From contig JAPPII010000009.1 of assembly GCA_028820845.1 (NCBI GenBank), positions 1 to 64,000 on the forward strand: 64,000 bases of DNA. The letters run 5' to 3'. The notes beneath the pieces are model-generated. The model did not search any database. It saw only the letters and a list, made by a program, of their open reading frames with translations, and was not told the origin of the DNA. This DNA is from Candidatus Poribacteria bacterium (GTDB lineage Bacteria > Poribacteria > WGA-4E > WGA-3G). Shown here in pieces: positions 34,590-41,854 of this stretch (within the stretch, counting starts at the first letter, position 1; each line of letters opens with the position of its first letter). The position numbers and the translations under genes were made by a program.

Positions 34590-34689
34590 TTTATTATTTT
34601 ATCTCCTCTCCAAATCAATCTGCGGTTCTCAAAATACCTCTATAAGTTGTATAGGATACATTTTACAAAAAAAGGGTGAGCATGTCAAC

Positions 34690-34935
34690 TACAATTATCT
34701 GAATCACGGATTTTCACGGATTATGCAGATTACACGGATTTCTGGGGTGTGTAAATATCTTGTTGAAAGTGTTGTCTGAAGGCACGTCGCATGAATCAAC
34801 GGTATTCATGCCTTAGGACATGAACCGAGGCGAGTCCGCCACAAATCGCGGATGACACGGATTGTGGACGCAGAAGACGCGGATTTTTGGGACATTTGGT
34901 CGTCAGAATCAGGATTATCGGATTTACAGGATTGG
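34690..34935. repeat. Repeat-rich non-coding stretch
   Basis: The 34590-35122 gap has no gene I can support. 34690-34740 and 34850-34935 carry many ACGGATT/CGGATTT words (for example GATTACACGGATTT) of the type also seen at 4366-4408. 34778-34842 holds a relative of the 70-odd-bp element nested in the hairpin repeat at 58634 (shared GCACGTCGCATGAATCA and ACGGTATTCA). A frame at 34887-35117 has no ribosome site and no recognisable content. Confidence 0.55.
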
Positions 34936-35122
34936 GAACTGTCACTCACAAACTGATAGGAATCAACGCGAAATGCGCGTGTAGCTTATGGCGTATGCTA
35001 CAACGTAGAAGGTTTGAGGAAGCAGTAGAGCTGCATAAACCCGCTCTAACATCTATCAAACTGCCCACAAGCAAGGCTCTCAAAGCAACACCTTATAATA
35101 GGCGAAGGTATTGCTAAAACAG

Positions 35123-36163
35123 TTAATCTTGTTTCTCGTCGAAAAATTTTCCGCTAATCACATCTTGTAAAATCTTTCCTCTATTTATACGGGTCATCCT
35201 ATCGTTGGTCGCTTGTCTAGTCGTTGTAAGGTACTCTGCTATTCTCTTGTCTTCCTTTTCAACCTCACTGTCTAACCCTCGCTGTCCTAACCTTTCTACT
35301 AATTCGTAAAACTGTCGCAGCTGTTCTCCAACTTTTGCAGGCTGAAGTGGTTTGTTTTCTTTAACTAACGCTCTATAAATCTCCACAAGCAAAGTAAATA
35401 GATCCGCCTTTCGCCAGACACGGCTATTTTGAAGAAATCCACACGCTTCTATAAACTTAAAAACTCTTTGAAATCCAATCTCTAAACGGCACTTTTCTTC
35501 AAATGTATCGTTATATTCTTGCAGATAATTTTCAAGTTCGTTATCCCTATTAAAGTAGGTTGACATCACAGTTACAACAATAGACAAAGCGAAACGAACA
35601 TCTCCCATACGTCTTACTTCGTTAGAATAGAAGACTCTATGTTTTTGAAAAAAAGGATCTTCCGCAAGTTTTTCAGCGAATCGTTTTATTTCTCCATCAA
35701 ATCTGGCATTATGAATCTCCATAGCATTCAAAGCATAGTTCGTTGAGTTAATTCGTTGAAACACCTCCTTTATCTTACTAATGTCTATTTTTCCCAAGTC
35801 TCGAACAACAACCTGATATTCTAAAAAGTCAACTTGTTTTCCTTCGGGTAGCTTCGAGTAGGAAATCACCTCTTTCGACAACCTTAAGTCTGGCGATGCT
35901 TCAAAGTACTGTTTCAATGTAGTTAACCTCTGTTGGCCATCTACCAGCATTTCCTTCCCTTCTCCAGTGACAGGATCTACTTCACCAGCAGCAATATATA
36001 TTTCGGGAAAAGGATACCCATCCAAAACTGTTTGAATAAAAGCACTTTTATGTTTATTCGACCACACTAAACGTCTTTGAAATTCAGGTCTTGGAATCAA
36101 GATTTCGTTCCGAATATCTGCCAAGAGCGTGCGTATTTTTTTATTTGTCGCTGTTGTTTGCAT
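35123..36163 (-). CDS. DUF262 (ParB/GmrS-like) protein
   Basis: 346 residues. The N-terminal DUF262 domain is visible: IPEFQR-like PRPEFQRRLVW, then GYPFPEIYI and MLVDGQQRLTTLKQYF, the DGQQR motif that in ParB/Srx-fold proteins binds or hydrolyses a nucleotide. The rest (about 140-346) is helical. DUF262 proteins occur in GmrSD, BREX-associated and other defence systems, often with a DUF1524 HNH partner; there is none here. GGAGGAG precedes the ATG inside the end of the nucleotidyltransferase gene (23-base overlap), so the two form a tight pair. Confidence 0.8.
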   Translation of the reverse strand: MQTTATNKKIRTLLADIRNEILIPRPEFQRRLVWSNKHKSAFIQTVLDGYPFPEIYIAAGEVDPVTGEGKEMLVDGQQRLTTLKQYFEASPDLRLSKEVISYSKLPEGKQVDFLEYQVVVRDLGKIDISKIKEVFQRINSTNYALNAMEIHNARFDGEIKRFAEKLAEDPFFQKHRVFYSNEVRRMGDVRFALSIVVTVMSTYFNRDNELENYLQEYNDTFEEKCRLEIGFQRVFKFIEACGFLQNSRVWRKADLFTLLVEIYRALVKENKPLQPAKVGEQLRQFYELVERLGQRGLDSEVEKEDKRIAEYLTTTRQATNDRMTRINRGKILQDVISGKFFDEKQD

Positions 36164-36743
36164 TCTTCTCCTCCAAGTTATCTATACATTGTTGTATACA
36201 AATTGTCTGATAGTTCTCGAGAAAAAAATACGACTTATATAATCCACCGGAAATTTTAAAATCTCCATATTTACGACTATTAGTGATAGACCGGAAAAAA
36301 TTCCACCAATCTTCTCTCAAAGGAAACATAGATGATCGAGGCAATTTATCAGGTCTTATCCATCCTCGAAAGAAATAGTCAACAAATTGATCATATTCGG
36401 GCCAATATGAACCCTCATACTTATATCTAAACACTTGTTCCCAAAATTCATCAAATAATCTCGAAGACACCAGAGCGACATCAATATCAGATTCATTACC
36501 GAATAGACGATATTTTTTATCTGGTACAACACTAAAACCCAGTTTTGTTGAGCCCACAACCAAAACATCATTTGGGTGCAGTCCGAAGTGATCAGCAACC
36601 TCCGAGCGCAAATCGAAGTATTTGTCCTGAGATAACATACAACATTCTCCAAAAAGAATGTGTTTTCTGACTATTCGGGTTGCCGATAAACGTCTTAATT
36701 CTTTCTTAAACTCATCAAGTCTTTCTTTACCCTCGTCAATCAT
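36141..36743 (-). CDS. Predicted nucleotidyltransferase paired with DUF262
   Basis: 200 residues from the ATG at 36743. The MNT/pol-beta-like nucleotidyltransferase core is visible: VLVVGSTKLGFS (the GS motif), followed about 20 residues later by ESDIDVALVS, the two metal-binding Asp of the DxD motif. The remainder contains aromatic-rich PEYDQFVDYFFRGW and KYGDFKISGG and is not recognised. Such enzymes attach nucleotides to tRNA, proteins or small molecules. The spacing from GS to DxD is longer than in typical CD-NTases. Tightly coupled with the DUF262 gene and beside a restriction system. Confidence 0.7.
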   Translation of the reverse strand: MIDEGKERLDEFKKELRRLSATRIVRKHILFGECCMLSQDKYFDLRSEVADHFGLHPNDVLVVGSTKLGFSVVPDKKYRLFGNESDIDVALVSSRLFDEFWEQVFRYKYEGSYWPEYDQFVDYFFRGWIRPDKLPRSSMFPLREDWWNFFRSITNSRKYGDFKISGGLYKSYFFLENYQTICIQQCIDNLEEKNANNSDK

Positions 36744-36789
36744 TATCAATTCCTAAGAAAATATGAGATACTGTCGCGCTCCACCCAAG

Positions 36790-36813
36790 TGGCGAGGTTT
36801 TCTAACCTCGACC
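36790..36813 (+). repeat. Hairpin repeat, copy f
   Basis: CGAGGTT, TTCT-type loop, AACCTCG at 36793-36810. It lies between the promoter at 36834 and the nucleotidyltransferase gene, that is, in the expected 5' leader. Confidence 0.7.
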
Positions 36814-36833
36814 ATTACCAAACTCATATTACA

Positions 36834-36842
36834 ATTATACCA
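36834..36842 (-). promoter_or_regulatory. Extended -10 promoter for the NTase-DUF262 pair
   Basis: On the minus strand TGGTATAAT, a perfect -10 with TG, about 90 bases before the ATG at 36743. No convincing -35. The pair therefore may be expressed independently of the restriction genes upstream. Confidence 0.5.
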
Positions 36843-36951
36843 CATATCATAGAGCAAATACCAATCTAAGCTGACGAAATCTAAGAGGAGAGGTTGCTGA
36901 CTTAAGGACAAAAGAACAGGTGAAGTGTTCCCATCCGAAATATCAAGGCAC

Positions 36952-38334
36952 TTACAAAACAGATTCCAACCAGTCGATAGCGGTTTGTTCGTCCTGTTCA
37001 ATGGCAATTTCGACTGATCGTTTGGCAGATTCCAGCAGGTCTTTGGCGCGCTTGCGTAAGTTGAAGGATTCGATGACCTTCTGTTGGATTTCAGTCTGTT
37101 TCTCTGCTCTGATTGTTGGAACAACGACTTTACTAAATTCTTCCCTATTAATTGCAGTAAGGATTGTCCCACTACACCCTTTCTTGAGCTGTAACTGACC
37201 GACGCTACTTTTCAAAAACACTAATAAAGTTTCCGAATTAAGCATATCCGAATTGATAGCATGAAACCCAGTCGAACATAGGGCATTATCATATTCCTCT
37301 GTTATCAAGGCTATGCTTTCCAGTGAGCCTTCAACAGACGAAACAATAACATCTCCCGCGTTCACCTTGCACCGTGCTCTACTTGGCAAGTTTTGTCCTT
37401 GCTCTACCATACAACCGTTTATTTCCGCACTGCTTCCGATATTGGCAAGTTCAATGTACTTGTATTCCGTTTCAGGTTCAGGTTTGAAATTGCTATCTTT
37501 TAACTGGGCATGATTCCCAATCTTACCCCATCCGCCCGGATAACCTTTAATGTCATCAATAATATCCTCGTATTTCGGTTGGAAGTAATCCGCGTCAATG
37601 CGTTCCGCGCGTTGCATGCTTGCATAATCTGTGGCAAAAGTCAACCTGTGCTTTGGTTGCCAGTCGGTAAGTCCCAGTTCCTCAAGGAGAAGAGTTTGGG
37701 TTTCGGCATACCGCGTTTTTGATAGTTCTGTTAGTTCTTTTGAACGGAGATAGGTTTTCTCTATTTCGGTTTGAAGGTTTTCCCAATTCGGGACAGGAAT
37801 TTGGTATAAAAAGGGCGGAGCAATATGAGGTTGTGCGCTACCATATTTGCCTCTTTCTATTAATGCTTTACCATACTTGGTATTGAGAAAAATAGCGAGA
37901 AAGAAAGGGTTTAAGGCACCACTTCGGATGATAAGCGTATCGGACATTGATATAGCAGGGTTATTTTCAAGATAGATAGCACATTGACCAACATTTGCCC
38001 CTGATCGCATTATCAGAATATCTTTGTAATGTATCGCGTTTTCCTTTAAACGTTCTGCATCTTCTTCTGATATATAAACCGGATTCGCTGTCAGATCAAT
38101 GGAGAGCGGGCGAACGTTTTGCCCTCTTAATAACAGAACACCATCATCCACATAATTTCGCTTTATTTCTTTAGGGTGTTTGATGTTGACTTGAAAATCA
38201 ATGAGTTTGCGCGAACCAATATCTTCGAGTCGGCGTTGGATCTGTAAATAATCGGGTCTAAAAAACTCCGCATCAAACCGCAGGGAATGGGAGGCATCCA
38301 CTATAGATTGGTAATCAACGGTAGAATACTGCAT
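36952..38334 (-). CDS. hsdS: Restriction-modification specificity subunit (HsdS/BcgIB-like)
   Basis: 460 residues with two target-recognition domains separated by conserved helices. Each half ends with the typical helical spacer: LQTEIEKTYLRSKELTELSK (about 190-215) and KQTEIQQKVIESFNLRKRAK (about 410-435). Each TRD starts with a similar DAEFFRPDY / DADYFQPKY segment, a clear internal repeat. It gives sequence specificity to the methylase-nuclease subunit encoded upstream. The ATG overlaps the stop of the DUF4145 gene by one base (TAATG). Confidence 0.9.
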   Translation of the reverse strand: MQYSTVDYQSIVDASHSLRFDAEFFRPDYLQIQRRLEDIGSRKLIDFQVNIKHPKEIKRNYVDDGVLLLRGQNVRPLSIDLTANPVYISEEDAERLKENAIHYKDILIMRSGANVGQCAIYLENNPAISMSDTLIIRSGALNPFFLAIFLNTKYGKALIERGKYGSAQPHIAPPFLYQIPVPNWENLQTEIEKTYLRSKELTELSKTRYAETQTLLLEELGLTDWQPKHRLTFATDYASMQRAERIDADYFQPKYEDIIDDIKGYPGGWGKIGNHAQLKDSNFKPEPETEYKYIELANIGSSAEINGCMVEQGQNLPSRARCKVNAGDVIVSSVEGSLESIALITEEYDNALCSTGFHAINSDMLNSETLLVFLKSSVGQLQLKKGCSGTILTAINREEFSKVVVPTIRAEKQTEIQQKVIESFNLRKRAKDLLESAKRSVEIAIEQDEQTAIDWLESVL

Positions 38335-38993
38335 TATTGCGTTTTACCATCCCGTTTTTCTACTGCTTCCTTAGGCCCCTCAGGAAGTCCATCGTAAAGT
38401 TCTTGAATCTGTTTAGGTTGTGTGATCAAGACACCAGCAATGACATTGATTAAGTTAAAAAGTGCTTGAACATCGGCAGTGTCGTCAAACACGATTTCCC
38501 CTGGGTGAACGGCATTGTCGCCCGTTATTCTCACAATATCCAATGATTGCTGGACCTTCGGGGCAAGTCCTTTTTTTACAAGATTCCCTATACTGTCATT
38601 GATATTACTTGTCTCTCCGAGATGTTTCATAAGCATTTCTACAGCCAATCTCAACAAAGCACAAGCGGCACGTGGAGATTGATCAGCTATAGCGGCAGCT
38701 TCGTCATAAACTTGTGTTACATCCTCCGGTAAATCACCATTTGCTGGTGGAGCACTACGCGTTGGCGGATAGATAATCTTTTCTGCTAACCAAAGAGTCC
38801 CGCTTTTACAGTGTGAACAAATAGCAACCTCCACGTCCACGTCTTTAATACAAATTTTATTAAATAAAACATCACGGAGGGCTTCATTGTAAACTGTAAT
38901 AACAGCATCTTCCCAATGTTGCAAAGCAAAAACCTGACAATTTGGACAATGAAAGGCATCATTCTTGTACTTTGGTGGATAATATTCAGACAT
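38334..38993 (-). CDS. DUF4145 zinc-ribbon protein inside the restriction operon
   Basis: 219 residues from the ATG at 38993, chosen because GGAG lies six bases upstream and it directly follows the methylase stop. A zinc ribbon comes first (HCPNCQ, then ICSHCKSG), then a helical DUF4145 domain (about 100-210; AACALLRLAVEMLMKHLGE and ITGDNAVHPGEIVFDDTADV, the last being the family's GN.AVH motif). DUF4145 often occurs in restriction loci as a separate or fused domain; its biochemical role is unknown. Placed between the methylase-nuclease gene and the specificity gene. Confidence 0.85.
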   Translation of the reverse strand: MSEYYPPKYKNDAFHCPNCQVFALQHWEDAVITVYNEALRDVLFNKICIKDVDVEVAICSHCKSGTLWLAEKIIYPPTRSAPPANGDLPEDVTQVYDEAAAIADQSPRAACALLRLAVEMLMKHLGETSNINDSIGNLVKKGLAPKVQQSLDIVRITGDNAVHPGEIVFDDTADVQALFNLINVIAGVLITQPKQIQELYDGLPEGPKEAVEKRDGKTQ

Positions 38994-38995
38994 GT

Positions 38996-41083
38996 TTATC
39001 TCCAAAAGCTCAAATCTTTACGCCTTGCCCATTCAATAAAGGCTTCGGCGATGCCGTCAGGGAGTTCTCCGTTGTGGTTGTGTAGGTCGTGATCAACAAT
39101 CAGGTGCCCGTTTTTGTCCAATTTGTGCTGTCCATCGCTATTTTCAAGGAAAATATAATCGCCAGAATTATCTTTACCACCCTTCCCACTCACCGCTAAA
39201 AAGACGGAGTAGTTGTCAACTTTTCGACAAAGGGGGCCCGCATTTGGATCATCGTTCCACTTTTGTACGAATAGAACGCTCGTTTTCGTACCGGTATGCG
39301 GTTTGAAAGTGTTACCGTGTAAACTGACGATAGCCAAAATACGGCCGCGCTCGGCGATAAATTCACGGACGGACTTGTCAGACGTGTTGTTAAATCTGCC
39401 TTGCGGTAGCACAATCGCCATACGCCCCCCGGGTTTGAGGAAATCAAGATTGCGTTCAATAAATAGGATATCGCGACCGATTTTAGTGTGTGCCTTGCCG
39501 TTCTGCTTAAAGGTGAGGTTATATTGATGGAGGATACGACTCTCCTTGATGTCTCCAGCAAAGGGTGGATTCGCCATCAGAATATCAAAACCAAATGACT
39601 TGTTCCTGTCCTGTTCCAGCCTTAACGCTTTGAGTCGATCAAAACCGTCGCCATACGTGCGTACCCACCTGCTATTTCTCTCTGTGCTGTCGTCCCACCG
39701 CTCGTAATCCAGTGTGTTGAGGTGCAAGACATTCGTTTCACCGTCTCCTGCGATCAGATTGAGGGTTCTCGCCACCCGGACAGTCTTTTCGTCGAAATCA
39801 ATTCCAAACACTTTGAGGACGTGCTCTTTGTCGGCTGCAGGGATTTCCGCATTCGTGAACAGCGTCCCAGTCAACTTGAAAACGGTATGCACCGGAAACC
39901 CGCAACTCCCAGCGGCGGTGTCAATCATATATTCCCCTGGCTGCGGATTGAGCATTTTGACACACATATCTATGACGTGGCGTGGCGTGAAGTATTGCCC
40001 TTTTTCGCCTTTGGCAGATTTACTCACCAGATACTCAAACGCTTCATCGACAACCTGTAAATTGGAGTTGAACAACTTTATATCCTGCAAACTGGACACA
40101 CAGACTGATAGGTGGCTGTCAGATAGTTCAAACGTCGAATGTTCGGGAAAAACGCCTCTCCACCGGTCTCTTGCATCGTCAAAAAGCCGCTGAATTTTGG
40201 TTTTGAGTTGGGAGTCGGTTTGTCCTGTGTTTCTGAACTCCACCGCTCGAAAATCGTCATCTGGAATTTCTTCAACGGCTTTCTTGAGAACCTCATAATC
40301 TGGATTTTCAACGTCGTAAGATTGATCTGTTTCTTGAATAGCCGTGTTGATTCTGGATCGCAGGAGGCGGTTGATAAACATCTTATCTTCCTGACTCTTG
40401 AATTCATCATAGAGTTTGGTAAAGATGAGTTTAAAGACCTCCTCAAAGACATCCACGCCTGCGTTGGCGAGTACCTCATCCTCTAATTCCAAAATGACAT
40501 CCTTCAAGGATTTGTGTTCCGTTGCGAGCTTATCCTTAAGAATGAGATCCTTGAGCGTAAAACGCTCATTGAGGATATCCGCCAAAGTCTGATCGGCGTT
40601 CGGAATATCGGTAATGTCTTCAAAGTAGTTCGGGTCTCGCCGGTGGTAGTGTGAAATCTGCTGTCCGTTTGTCCATACAGCAATAGGCGCGCCGGTGGCA
40701 TTGCAGTAGGAACGGAGTTGTGCCTTGCCGTCTTGGAGTTTTGGCTTTTTTACTTCAATGATAATATAAGGACTATCGGCTCTGTCCTTGTCAAGGATAA
40801 CGATGTCAGCACGTTTCTTTTCTCTACCGAAATTGACAAGATGCTCAAACCGCACGCGTTCTCGTGGATAATGATACCGGTTCAGGAGGCGTTCTACATA
40901 CAATTGACGGATGAGTTCCTCGGGTTTGAGCTGGATTGCTTTCCCTCGGATAGGGCAGTAGGTGATGGGTGTTTTTTTGCCCTCTATTCTTTGACGTAAG
41001 CTCTGAATTTCGGAAGCGTCGAATAGGTCGAGGTGGTAATTGCTGTCTTTGAGTATCGTTTGGATGATGTCGGGTTGGGTCAT
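38996..41083 (-). CDS. Restriction nuclease-N6-adenine methylase fusion (BcgI A-like)
   Basis: 695 residues. The N-terminus is a type I HSDR_N-like PD-(D/E)xK nuclease: RADIVILDKD (D93) and IIIEVKKPK (E110, K112). A helical HsdM N-terminal region leads to the N6-adenine methylase: GQYFTPRHVIDMCV, DTAAGSCGFPV (AdoMet site), MANPPFAGD (catalytic NPPF) and GGRMAIVLPQG. No SF2 helicase is present anywhere in the operon, so this is not a type I translocating enzyme; nuclease-methylase in one chain plus a separate specificity subunit is the type IIB (BcgI) arrangement. Confidence 0.85.
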   Translation of the reverse strand: MTQPDIIQTILKDSNYHLDLFDASEIQSLRQRIEGKKTPITYCPIRGKAIQLKPEELIRQLYVERLLNRYHYPRERVRFEHLVNFGREKKRADIVILDKDRADSPYIIIEVKKPKLQDGKAQLRSYCNATGAPIAVWTNGQQISHYHRRDPNYFEDITDIPNADQTLADILNERFTLKDLILKDKLATEHKSLKDVILELEDEVLANAGVDVFEEVFKLIFTKLYDEFKSQEDKMFINRLLRSRINTAIQETDQSYDVENPDYEVLKKAVEEIPDDDFRAVEFRNTGQTDSQLKTKIQRLFDDARDRWRGVFPEHSTFELSDSHLSVCVSSLQDIKLFNSNLQVVDEAFEYLVSKSAKGEKGQYFTPRHVIDMCVKMLNPQPGEYMIDTAAGSCGFPVHTVFKLTGTLFTNAEIPAADKEHVLKVFGIDFDEKTVRVARTLNLIAGDGETNVLHLNTLDYERWDDSTERNSRWVRTYGDGFDRLKALRLEQDRNKSFGFDILMANPPFAGDIKESRILHQYNLTFKQNGKAHTKIGRDILFIERNLDFLKPGGRMAIVLPQGRFNNTSDKSVREFIAERGRILAIVSLHGNTFKPHTGTKTSVLFVQKWNDDPNAGPLCRKVDNYSVFLAVSGKGGKDNSGDYIFLENSDGQHKLDKNGHLIVDHDLHNHNGELPDGIAEAFIEWARRKDLSFWR

Positions 41084-41223
41084 CGTTTTTTCTTATCTAT
41101 TAATGCTTTCGCCAAAGTCGTTTACAATTTCAGTAATGTTGTCCATGTTTTTTCGTGTTCAAGTTCTTCTATTTTCTGGTGGGATGTCTGGATTTCTTCT
41201 CGCTGATTGATAGACAAGAAAAC

Positions 41224-41493
41224 TCAAAGCACATCAAGCAACTTTTCATATTCTGCATGCGGCCCGATCCAGAACCAAACGATTTTTCCACTATCAACAA
41301 CTCCAACCGCTCTATAGTTGATGTTAATACGTACAGCATAAATTGACTCAGTGTTATGTACTTTCTTGAATCGCAAACTTGGGTGATATGGATTTTCCCT
41401 GAAGAGTCTATAGGCATCTTTAGCCTGCTGTCGAATGTTATTTGGTAATTTCGCAAGCATCTGCCGGAAGCGTTTTGTTGTGCTTGAATTCAT
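41224..41493 (-). CDS. RelE/ParE-type toxin
   Basis: 89 residues, compact and basic. Typical segments are FRQMLAKLPNNIRQQAKDAY, HPSLRFKKVHNTESIYAVRININYRAVGVVDSGK (the central strands, quoted only as a pattern: HPSLRFKK and YAVRI) and IVWFWIGPHAEYEKLL at the end. Most members cut mRNA at the ribosome or poison gyrase. The start overlaps the antitoxin stop by four bases (ATGA). It is downstream of the antitoxin as in many such modules. Confidence 0.8.
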   Translation of the reverse strand: MNSSTTKRFRQMLAKLPNNIRQQAKDAYRLFRENPYHPSLRFKKVHNTESIYAVRININYRAVGVVDSGKIVWFWIGPHAEYEKLLDVL

Positions 41494-41708
41494 AGTTGGT
41501 CTGGATTTAGTTCCTGCGTTTGCCCCCTACGATGTTCAGCAAGTGCTTCTGAAGCCAGCTTGGATAATGTCTCTTGAGAACTGGCAAACAATTTATCCCA
41601 TCGTTTTTCAGAACGAAGTTCAGCAAGGACCCAATCTGCAAGTGCATCCTGTTCCTTGGGTGAAAGTTTTGATGCTTCCGTAAAAGCGTGTTCAAGGCGC
41701 GTTGTCAT
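41490..41708 (-). CDS. Antitoxin of the RelE-type module
   Basis: 72 residues, acidic and helical (LSPKEQDALADWVLAEL; WDKLFASSQETLSKLASEALAEH), with AAAGGAGG upstream of the ATG. It lacks an obvious ribbon-helix-helix but has the size and order of antitoxins next to RelE-type toxins. It should neutralise the toxin and may repress the operon. Confidence 0.75.
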   Translation of the reverse strand: MTTRLEHAFTEASKLSPKEQDALADWVLAELRSEKRWDKLFASSQETLSKLASEALAEHRRGQTQELNPDQL

Positions 41709-41854
41709 GAAGATACCTCCTTTATTATATTGATGGACAAGAAATTCAAGAGCACAGCGACAAACTGATAATAACTTCTCCGGACGTTAGTATTTTTTAT
41801 CGACACACCGTTGATGCATTATAACATGACAACCGAGCGACTGCAATAAAATTT

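Follow-up and report, generated by a model that had tools for sequence, protein, structure and literature searches.

The genes at positions 35,123 to 36,743 of the window, by which is meant the whole 64,000-nucleotide stretch of Candidatus Poribacteria DNA that was analysed, encode a small nucleotidyltransferase (NTase) and a DUF262 protein that together form a conserved cognate pair. The motifs of the pair are intact, both genes are under purifying selection, the two are inherited together, and they occupy prophage as well as chromosomal defence slots. On the strength of this location and co-inheritance, the pair is very likely a genome-conflict module with an anti-phage or toxin-antitoxin function of some kind. 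That the two genes travel together in phages, in a plasmid and in bacterial defence hotspots indicates that they probably constitute a variant of an anti-virus system, and the pair may well be an anti-phage (phage-exclusion) module, compact, made up of two genes and horizontally mobile, in which the DUF262 protein serves as sensor and the NTase as effector.

Both genes lie on the minus strand, and the two overlapping open reading frames reported in a first-pass annotation of this DNA were confirmed. The first gene of the pair (36141..36743) encodes the NTase, a protein of 200 residues containing the motifs GS-x-K-x-G-F-S and S-D-I-D, and the second (35123..36163) encodes the 346-residue DUF262 (GmrSD_N) protein, the two genes having 23 bp in common (36141..36163). 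Shine-Dalgarno-like sequences were present at both starts. The NTase start was assigned to the ATG at 36743, with AGGA about 8 nt upstream, the alternative TTG at 36749, which would give a longer protein, being less likely; the Shine-Dalgarno sequence of the DUF262 gene, GGAGG, stands just before its ATG (36163) and within the NTase gene. The window derives from a Candidatus Poribacteria MAG, and two loci (L001 and L002) were near-identical to it.

The first-pass annotation had also credited the pair with a promoter of its own, which could not be upheld: a promoter scan of the region upstream of 36743 returned no minus-strand site, and the 2 sites that it did return compare with 5.9 in shuffled sequences. 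Inspection of this region by eye revealed only an extended -10 sequence, TGGTATAAT, at 36842-36834. The pair is located 208 bp downstream of a restriction-modification (R-M) operon on the same strand, and read-through from that operon into the pair is therefore possible. A dispersed hairpin repeat, GGCGAGGTTTTCTAACCTCG, is also found upstream of the pair (36791..36810). It was ruled out as a pair-specific regulatory element because 60 copies, at no more than 2 mismatches, are spread across the genome, as against 0 for a reversed-pattern control.

The supposition that the NTase and the DUF262 protein belong together was borne out well beyond the genome of origin, with about 23 intact pairs supported by reciprocal searches and congruent trees. 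Searches led by the NTase located the pair in Poribacteria, in a second phylum (genome G172), in a 6.2-kb plasmid of Cronobacter dublinensis (identities of 31% and 33%), in an Escherichia coli P2-like prophage and in IMG/VR contigs. Searches led by DUF262, which do not presuppose the NTase, revealed an NTase gene directly upstream in every close viral match that had DNA there (L079-L081, L083-L085 and L090-L095), the single exception being a copy that starts at the edge of its contig. Distant DUF262 proteins at 24% identity and without an NTase (L086-L089) were left out of the member count. No sign was seen of a tie with antibiotic modification or with the processing of tRNA.

The order of the genes, NTase first and DUF262 second, was the same in all 22 intact pairs compared, with spacings of -59 to +12 bp. 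When grouped by NTase identity, these pairs gave 19 clusters at a threshold of 80% and 8 at 50%. Distances in the NTase and DUF262 trees were strongly correlated (Mantel r of 0.97, a value reached by 0 of 5000 permutations) and the two topologies were nearly the same, while dN/dS ratios of 0.06-0.36 for the NTase and 0.14-0.30 for DUF262 attest to the purifying selection on both genes. Decayed copies of the pair were observed in three genomes (G027, G003 and G019), and no intact solo copy was found. The distribution is sparse, at 18 of 387 genomes in one sample, a count that includes relatives lacking DUF262; this is a point against the anti-phage reading. A viral scan with enterobacterial NTases as queries gave no match, and an annotated phage collection contained none.

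The description of the second protein as DUF262 with a DGQQR motif proved correct. The protein matched PF03235 (GmrSD_N) at 1.1e-22, and neither protein of the pair matched the DUF1524 His-Me nuclease at E values up to 1. The motifs QR (residues 29-30), DGQQR (residues 75-79) and FxxxN (F135xxxN139) were kept in 22 of 22 homologues, a set that stands for NTP binding and hydrolysis in the DUF262 family (PMC12137116). The nearest defence proteins were NsnA (6.4e-31 over residues 4-246) and PD-T4-2_A (5.5e-16 over residues 19-306). Among PDB entries, chance matches to a neurotoxin light chain (E values of 0.26 and above) apart, the only match was to 7p9k, which we take to be BrxU, and it was confined to the N-terminal part.

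Comparison with known systems places the DUF262 protein among relatives that have other partners. NsnA, which we equate with Menshen, is similarly a DUF262 protein without DUF1524. The Menshen DUF262 protein works with a predicted OLD nuclease (PMC10952713), whereas the NTase takes that place here; in the window, the neighbours of the DUF262 gene are acs on one side and the NTase gene and R-M operon on the other, and no OLD/TOPRIM nuclease gene borders the pair. PD-T4-2, identified in E. coli by functional selection and belonging to a kind of system that prophages there commonly carry (PMC9519451), likewise has a short DUF262 protein but is listed with DUF262 and HEPN (PMC10952713), in place of which the present pair has the NTase. 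GmrSD, BrxU, SspE, GrwAB and TgvAB share the DUF262 domain with QR, DGQQR and FxxxN (the motif set as given in PMC12137116) but differ from the pair in having the DUF1524 His-Me nuclease.

The sensor and effector roles are proposed from the way in which GmrSD, BrxU, SspE and GrwAB work and from the reported DUF262 systems Menshen and PD-T4-2. The DUF262 protein would be an NTP-binding and NTP-hydrolysing sensor or switch that responds to some feature of the invading phage, perhaps modified DNA as in GmrSD, BrxU, SspE and GrwAB, and that controls, possibly through direct interaction, a dedicated minimal Pol-beta-type NTase in place of a DUF1524, OLD or HEPN nuclease. Once released or activated, the NTase would put a stop to phage production by transferring NMP onto some essential RNA or protein. 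We tentatively suggest, as one possibility, that the pair represents a new two-gene defence class, with a DUF262 NTPase sensor acting on a dedicated, minimal two-carboxylate NTase effector that NMPylates cellular RNA or protein, as part of a modular family that couples one type of DUF262 sensor to OLD, HEPN, DUF1524 or NTase effectors. The first-pass annotation had envisaged a small anti-phage or toxin-antitoxin system in which one enzyme writes a nucleotide mark that the other reads or reverses. Recurrent pairing in anti-phage and conflict settings, both P2 and chromosomal defence hotspots, lends weight to the former part of this proposal; for the latter no positive evidence emerged, and DUF262 proteins have a known role as NTP-dependent sensors and switches but are not known to erase marks.

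The NTase itself was originally characterized as a GSx..DxD protein with an unrecognized C-terminal half, and this description stands, the window protein matching no family in Pfam, NCBIfam or PADLOC. PF01909 (NTP_transf_2) was weakly matched by 4 of 14 relatives (best value 8e-4), and the protein belongs to phrog_32008 of PHROGs (1.2e-12), where the function is given as unknown. The GSx..DxD motif of the Pol-beta nucleotidyltransferase superfamily is present and invariant, G64, S65, D86 and D88 (numbered from the ATG) being kept in 22 of 22 homologues. By contrast, the third catalytic carboxylate of Pol-beta NTases is not conserved: among these 22 homologues the third strand holds no conserved acid, the only invariant acids are D86 and D88, and E176, present in 19 of 22, is located in the last helix. 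The NTase could therefore be inactive or non-canonical.

Structure prediction with AlphaFold gave a pLDDT of 90.4 with a 14-row homologue alignment and 35.5 from the single sequence, and the structural reading rests on the former model. This model contains N-terminal helices, a strand at residues 60-63 ending at GS, a strand at 86-92 with SDID, a further strand at 163-169 and then a long C-terminal helix, a predicted order that fits a minimal Pol-beta NTase core. Foldseek searches of the model against the PDB and BFVD returned noise only and no significant neighbour. PDB sequence matches of the NTase were attributed to chance, and a Pfam match to DUF3289 (0.018) was dismissed as falling below the cut-off.

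The main rival to an anti-phage module is a toxin-antitoxin system resembling MntA-HepT and working by NMPylation, in which the NTase would be an antitoxin that NMPylates or binds a DUF262 toxin or DNA-targeting effector, with phage infection relieving the inhibition. In MNT/HEPN systems a small NTase neutralizes its partner, and the present pair resembles them in the close linkage of a small NTase with a single partner gene. Strict 1:1 co-inheritance, the lack of intact solo copies, carriage on mobile elements and a ParE-like toxin-antitoxin system next door to the window pair are all consistent with this arrangement. It is nevertheless rather unlikely: the partner is DUF262 and not HEPN, no HEPN or recognized toxin domain occurs in the pair (the NTase family matched neither HEPN nor PD-T4-2_B), and in other systems DUF262 proteins function as NTPase sensors. 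The NTase also departs from its MNT counterparts in its unique C-terminal half and in having no conserved third carboxylate, and when its family was compared by hhalign with the plain PF01909 NTases of the same genomes, only the GS/DxD core could be aligned (probability 40%).

CBASS-like signalling, in which a nucleotide messenger made by the NTase would activate the DUF262 protein, is improbable. The GSx..DxD motif, the weak match of one NTase member to the PADLOC oligonucleotide-cyclase model (0.016) and the occurrence of an NTase with a partner in the same defence context are reminiscent of such a system. With 200 residues, however, the NTase is too small and does not have the larger CD-NTase architecture, no significant CD-NTase match was obtained for its family by sequence or fold, and the pair includes no known CBASS effector. 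To our knowledge, moreover, DUF262 is not a messenger receptor. There is also little likelihood that the NTase is a pseudo-enzyme, that is, a dead nucleotide-binding partner or scaffold that leaves the whole activity to DUF262. The missing third carboxylate and the subtype-specific motifs of the C-terminal half (GWIRPD versus FVSLKE) would agree with this, but invariance of GS and both aspartates in 22 of 22 divergent homologues would be unusual for a dead enzyme.

The settings in which the pair is found argue for the preferred reading, an anti-phage module. Three prophage copies of the pair, in E. coli 1500 (NZ_CP040269.1, 3200-4980) and in loci L018 and L019, lie ahead of the portal gene gpQ in a P2-like region, and in E. 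coli 1500 and L019 the pair is downstream of gpA; the portal of the gpA-gpQ slot in L014 and L019 was recognized by a PHROG match at 6e-170. The P2 gpA-gpQ gap is an experimentally shown hotspot of anti-phage systems (PMC9122126). The portals of L014 and L018 are 97.6% identical while the pairs are only 29-32% identical, which implies that different versions of the pair occupy the same slot. Other prophage and phage slots adjoin genes for an integrase (L015), for a CI-type repressor (L016), for a KAP NTPase (L017) and for lysis or baseplate functions (L091 and L092), and in G172 the pair is part of an operon that also encodes an Mrr-helicase and an AAA_5 protein. A phage accessory (moron) pair that serves regulation or lysogeny and has no part in defence might be suggested by the many prophage copies near repressor, integrase or lysis genes, but is highly improbable given that the P2 gap is a known defence slot and that the pair is also present in chromosomal R-M/NACHT hotspots, on a small plasmid and in the Mrr-helicase/AAA operon. 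The KAP-family P-loop NTPase gene of the L017 phage contig (L017:8073-9815) is situated about 0.5 kb downstream of the pair.

The window pair had been placed in a defence island, and the comparison of genus members agrees. The pair lies upstream of acs, in an interval of variable content that is bounded by acs and a CPBP protease gene (34590..41854) and that constitutes a chromosomal defence hotspot, empty or differently filled in other members of the genus. This interval is nearly empty in L129 and L130, and elsewhere its cargo includes type I R-M, NACHT, DNA methylases, PLD-helicase, Schlafen and toxin-antitoxin modules. A type I R-M-like operon (36952..41083, minus strand) shares the hotspot in the window and is not part of the pair; it comprises, all on the minus strand, genes for HsdS (36952-38334), a DUF4145/PD-T7-4-like protein (38334-39005) and an HsdR_N-N6_Mtase fusion (38996-41083). 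Along its entire length, the DUF4145 protein matched PADLOC PD-T7-4 (8.6e-77), and the operon has a similar arrangement in L133 and L142. Adjoining the operon is a ParE-like toxin gene (PF24732, 2.3e-10) with a small, overlapping antitoxin-like open reading frame upstream (41224-41708).

In several other Poribacteria the pair occupies another site, which is stable, flanked by TPR and TIM-barrel genes and no obvious defence island, and which counts against the defence reading. This site is shared across two Poribacteria genera (L068-L071, L077 and L078), often with TPR-repeat genes upstream and with a conserved AP_endonuc_2 TIM-barrel gene downstream. As third components these neighbours were ruled out, being absent from the window, the phages and the plasmid.

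DUF262 proteins, including a DUF262-only kind, are common in defence loci. Cognate pairing with an NTase across phyla, together with interchangeable P2 cargo, provides a small clonable system for testing DUF262 as a general sensor with different effectors, and adds an NTase lineage without the usual third acid that is unnamed in Pfam, NCBIfam and PADLOC and figures in PHROGs only as phrog_32008. DUF262 defence systems are already known; the NTase-DUF262 unit turns out to be undescribed as far as the literature was covered, no description having been found in the openly accessible papers searched, although one may exist in paywalled papers, preprints or newer system catalogues.

A second recurrent pair involving the same NTase superfamily was also observed, with no DUF262 gene nearby. 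Here, a small biosynthetic-transglycosylase-like gene (about 200-240 codons) overlaps the gene for an NTase of 219-239 residues with the motif GSAxxGxS..SDLD. This arrangement was found in the Poribacteria genomes G017, G005, G065 and G082 (loci L055, L056, L057 and L064, respectively) and on the Aliarcobacter plasmid pM830MA (L013:5235-6489), and in some of these loci a DNA methylase or DUF4365 gene comes next.
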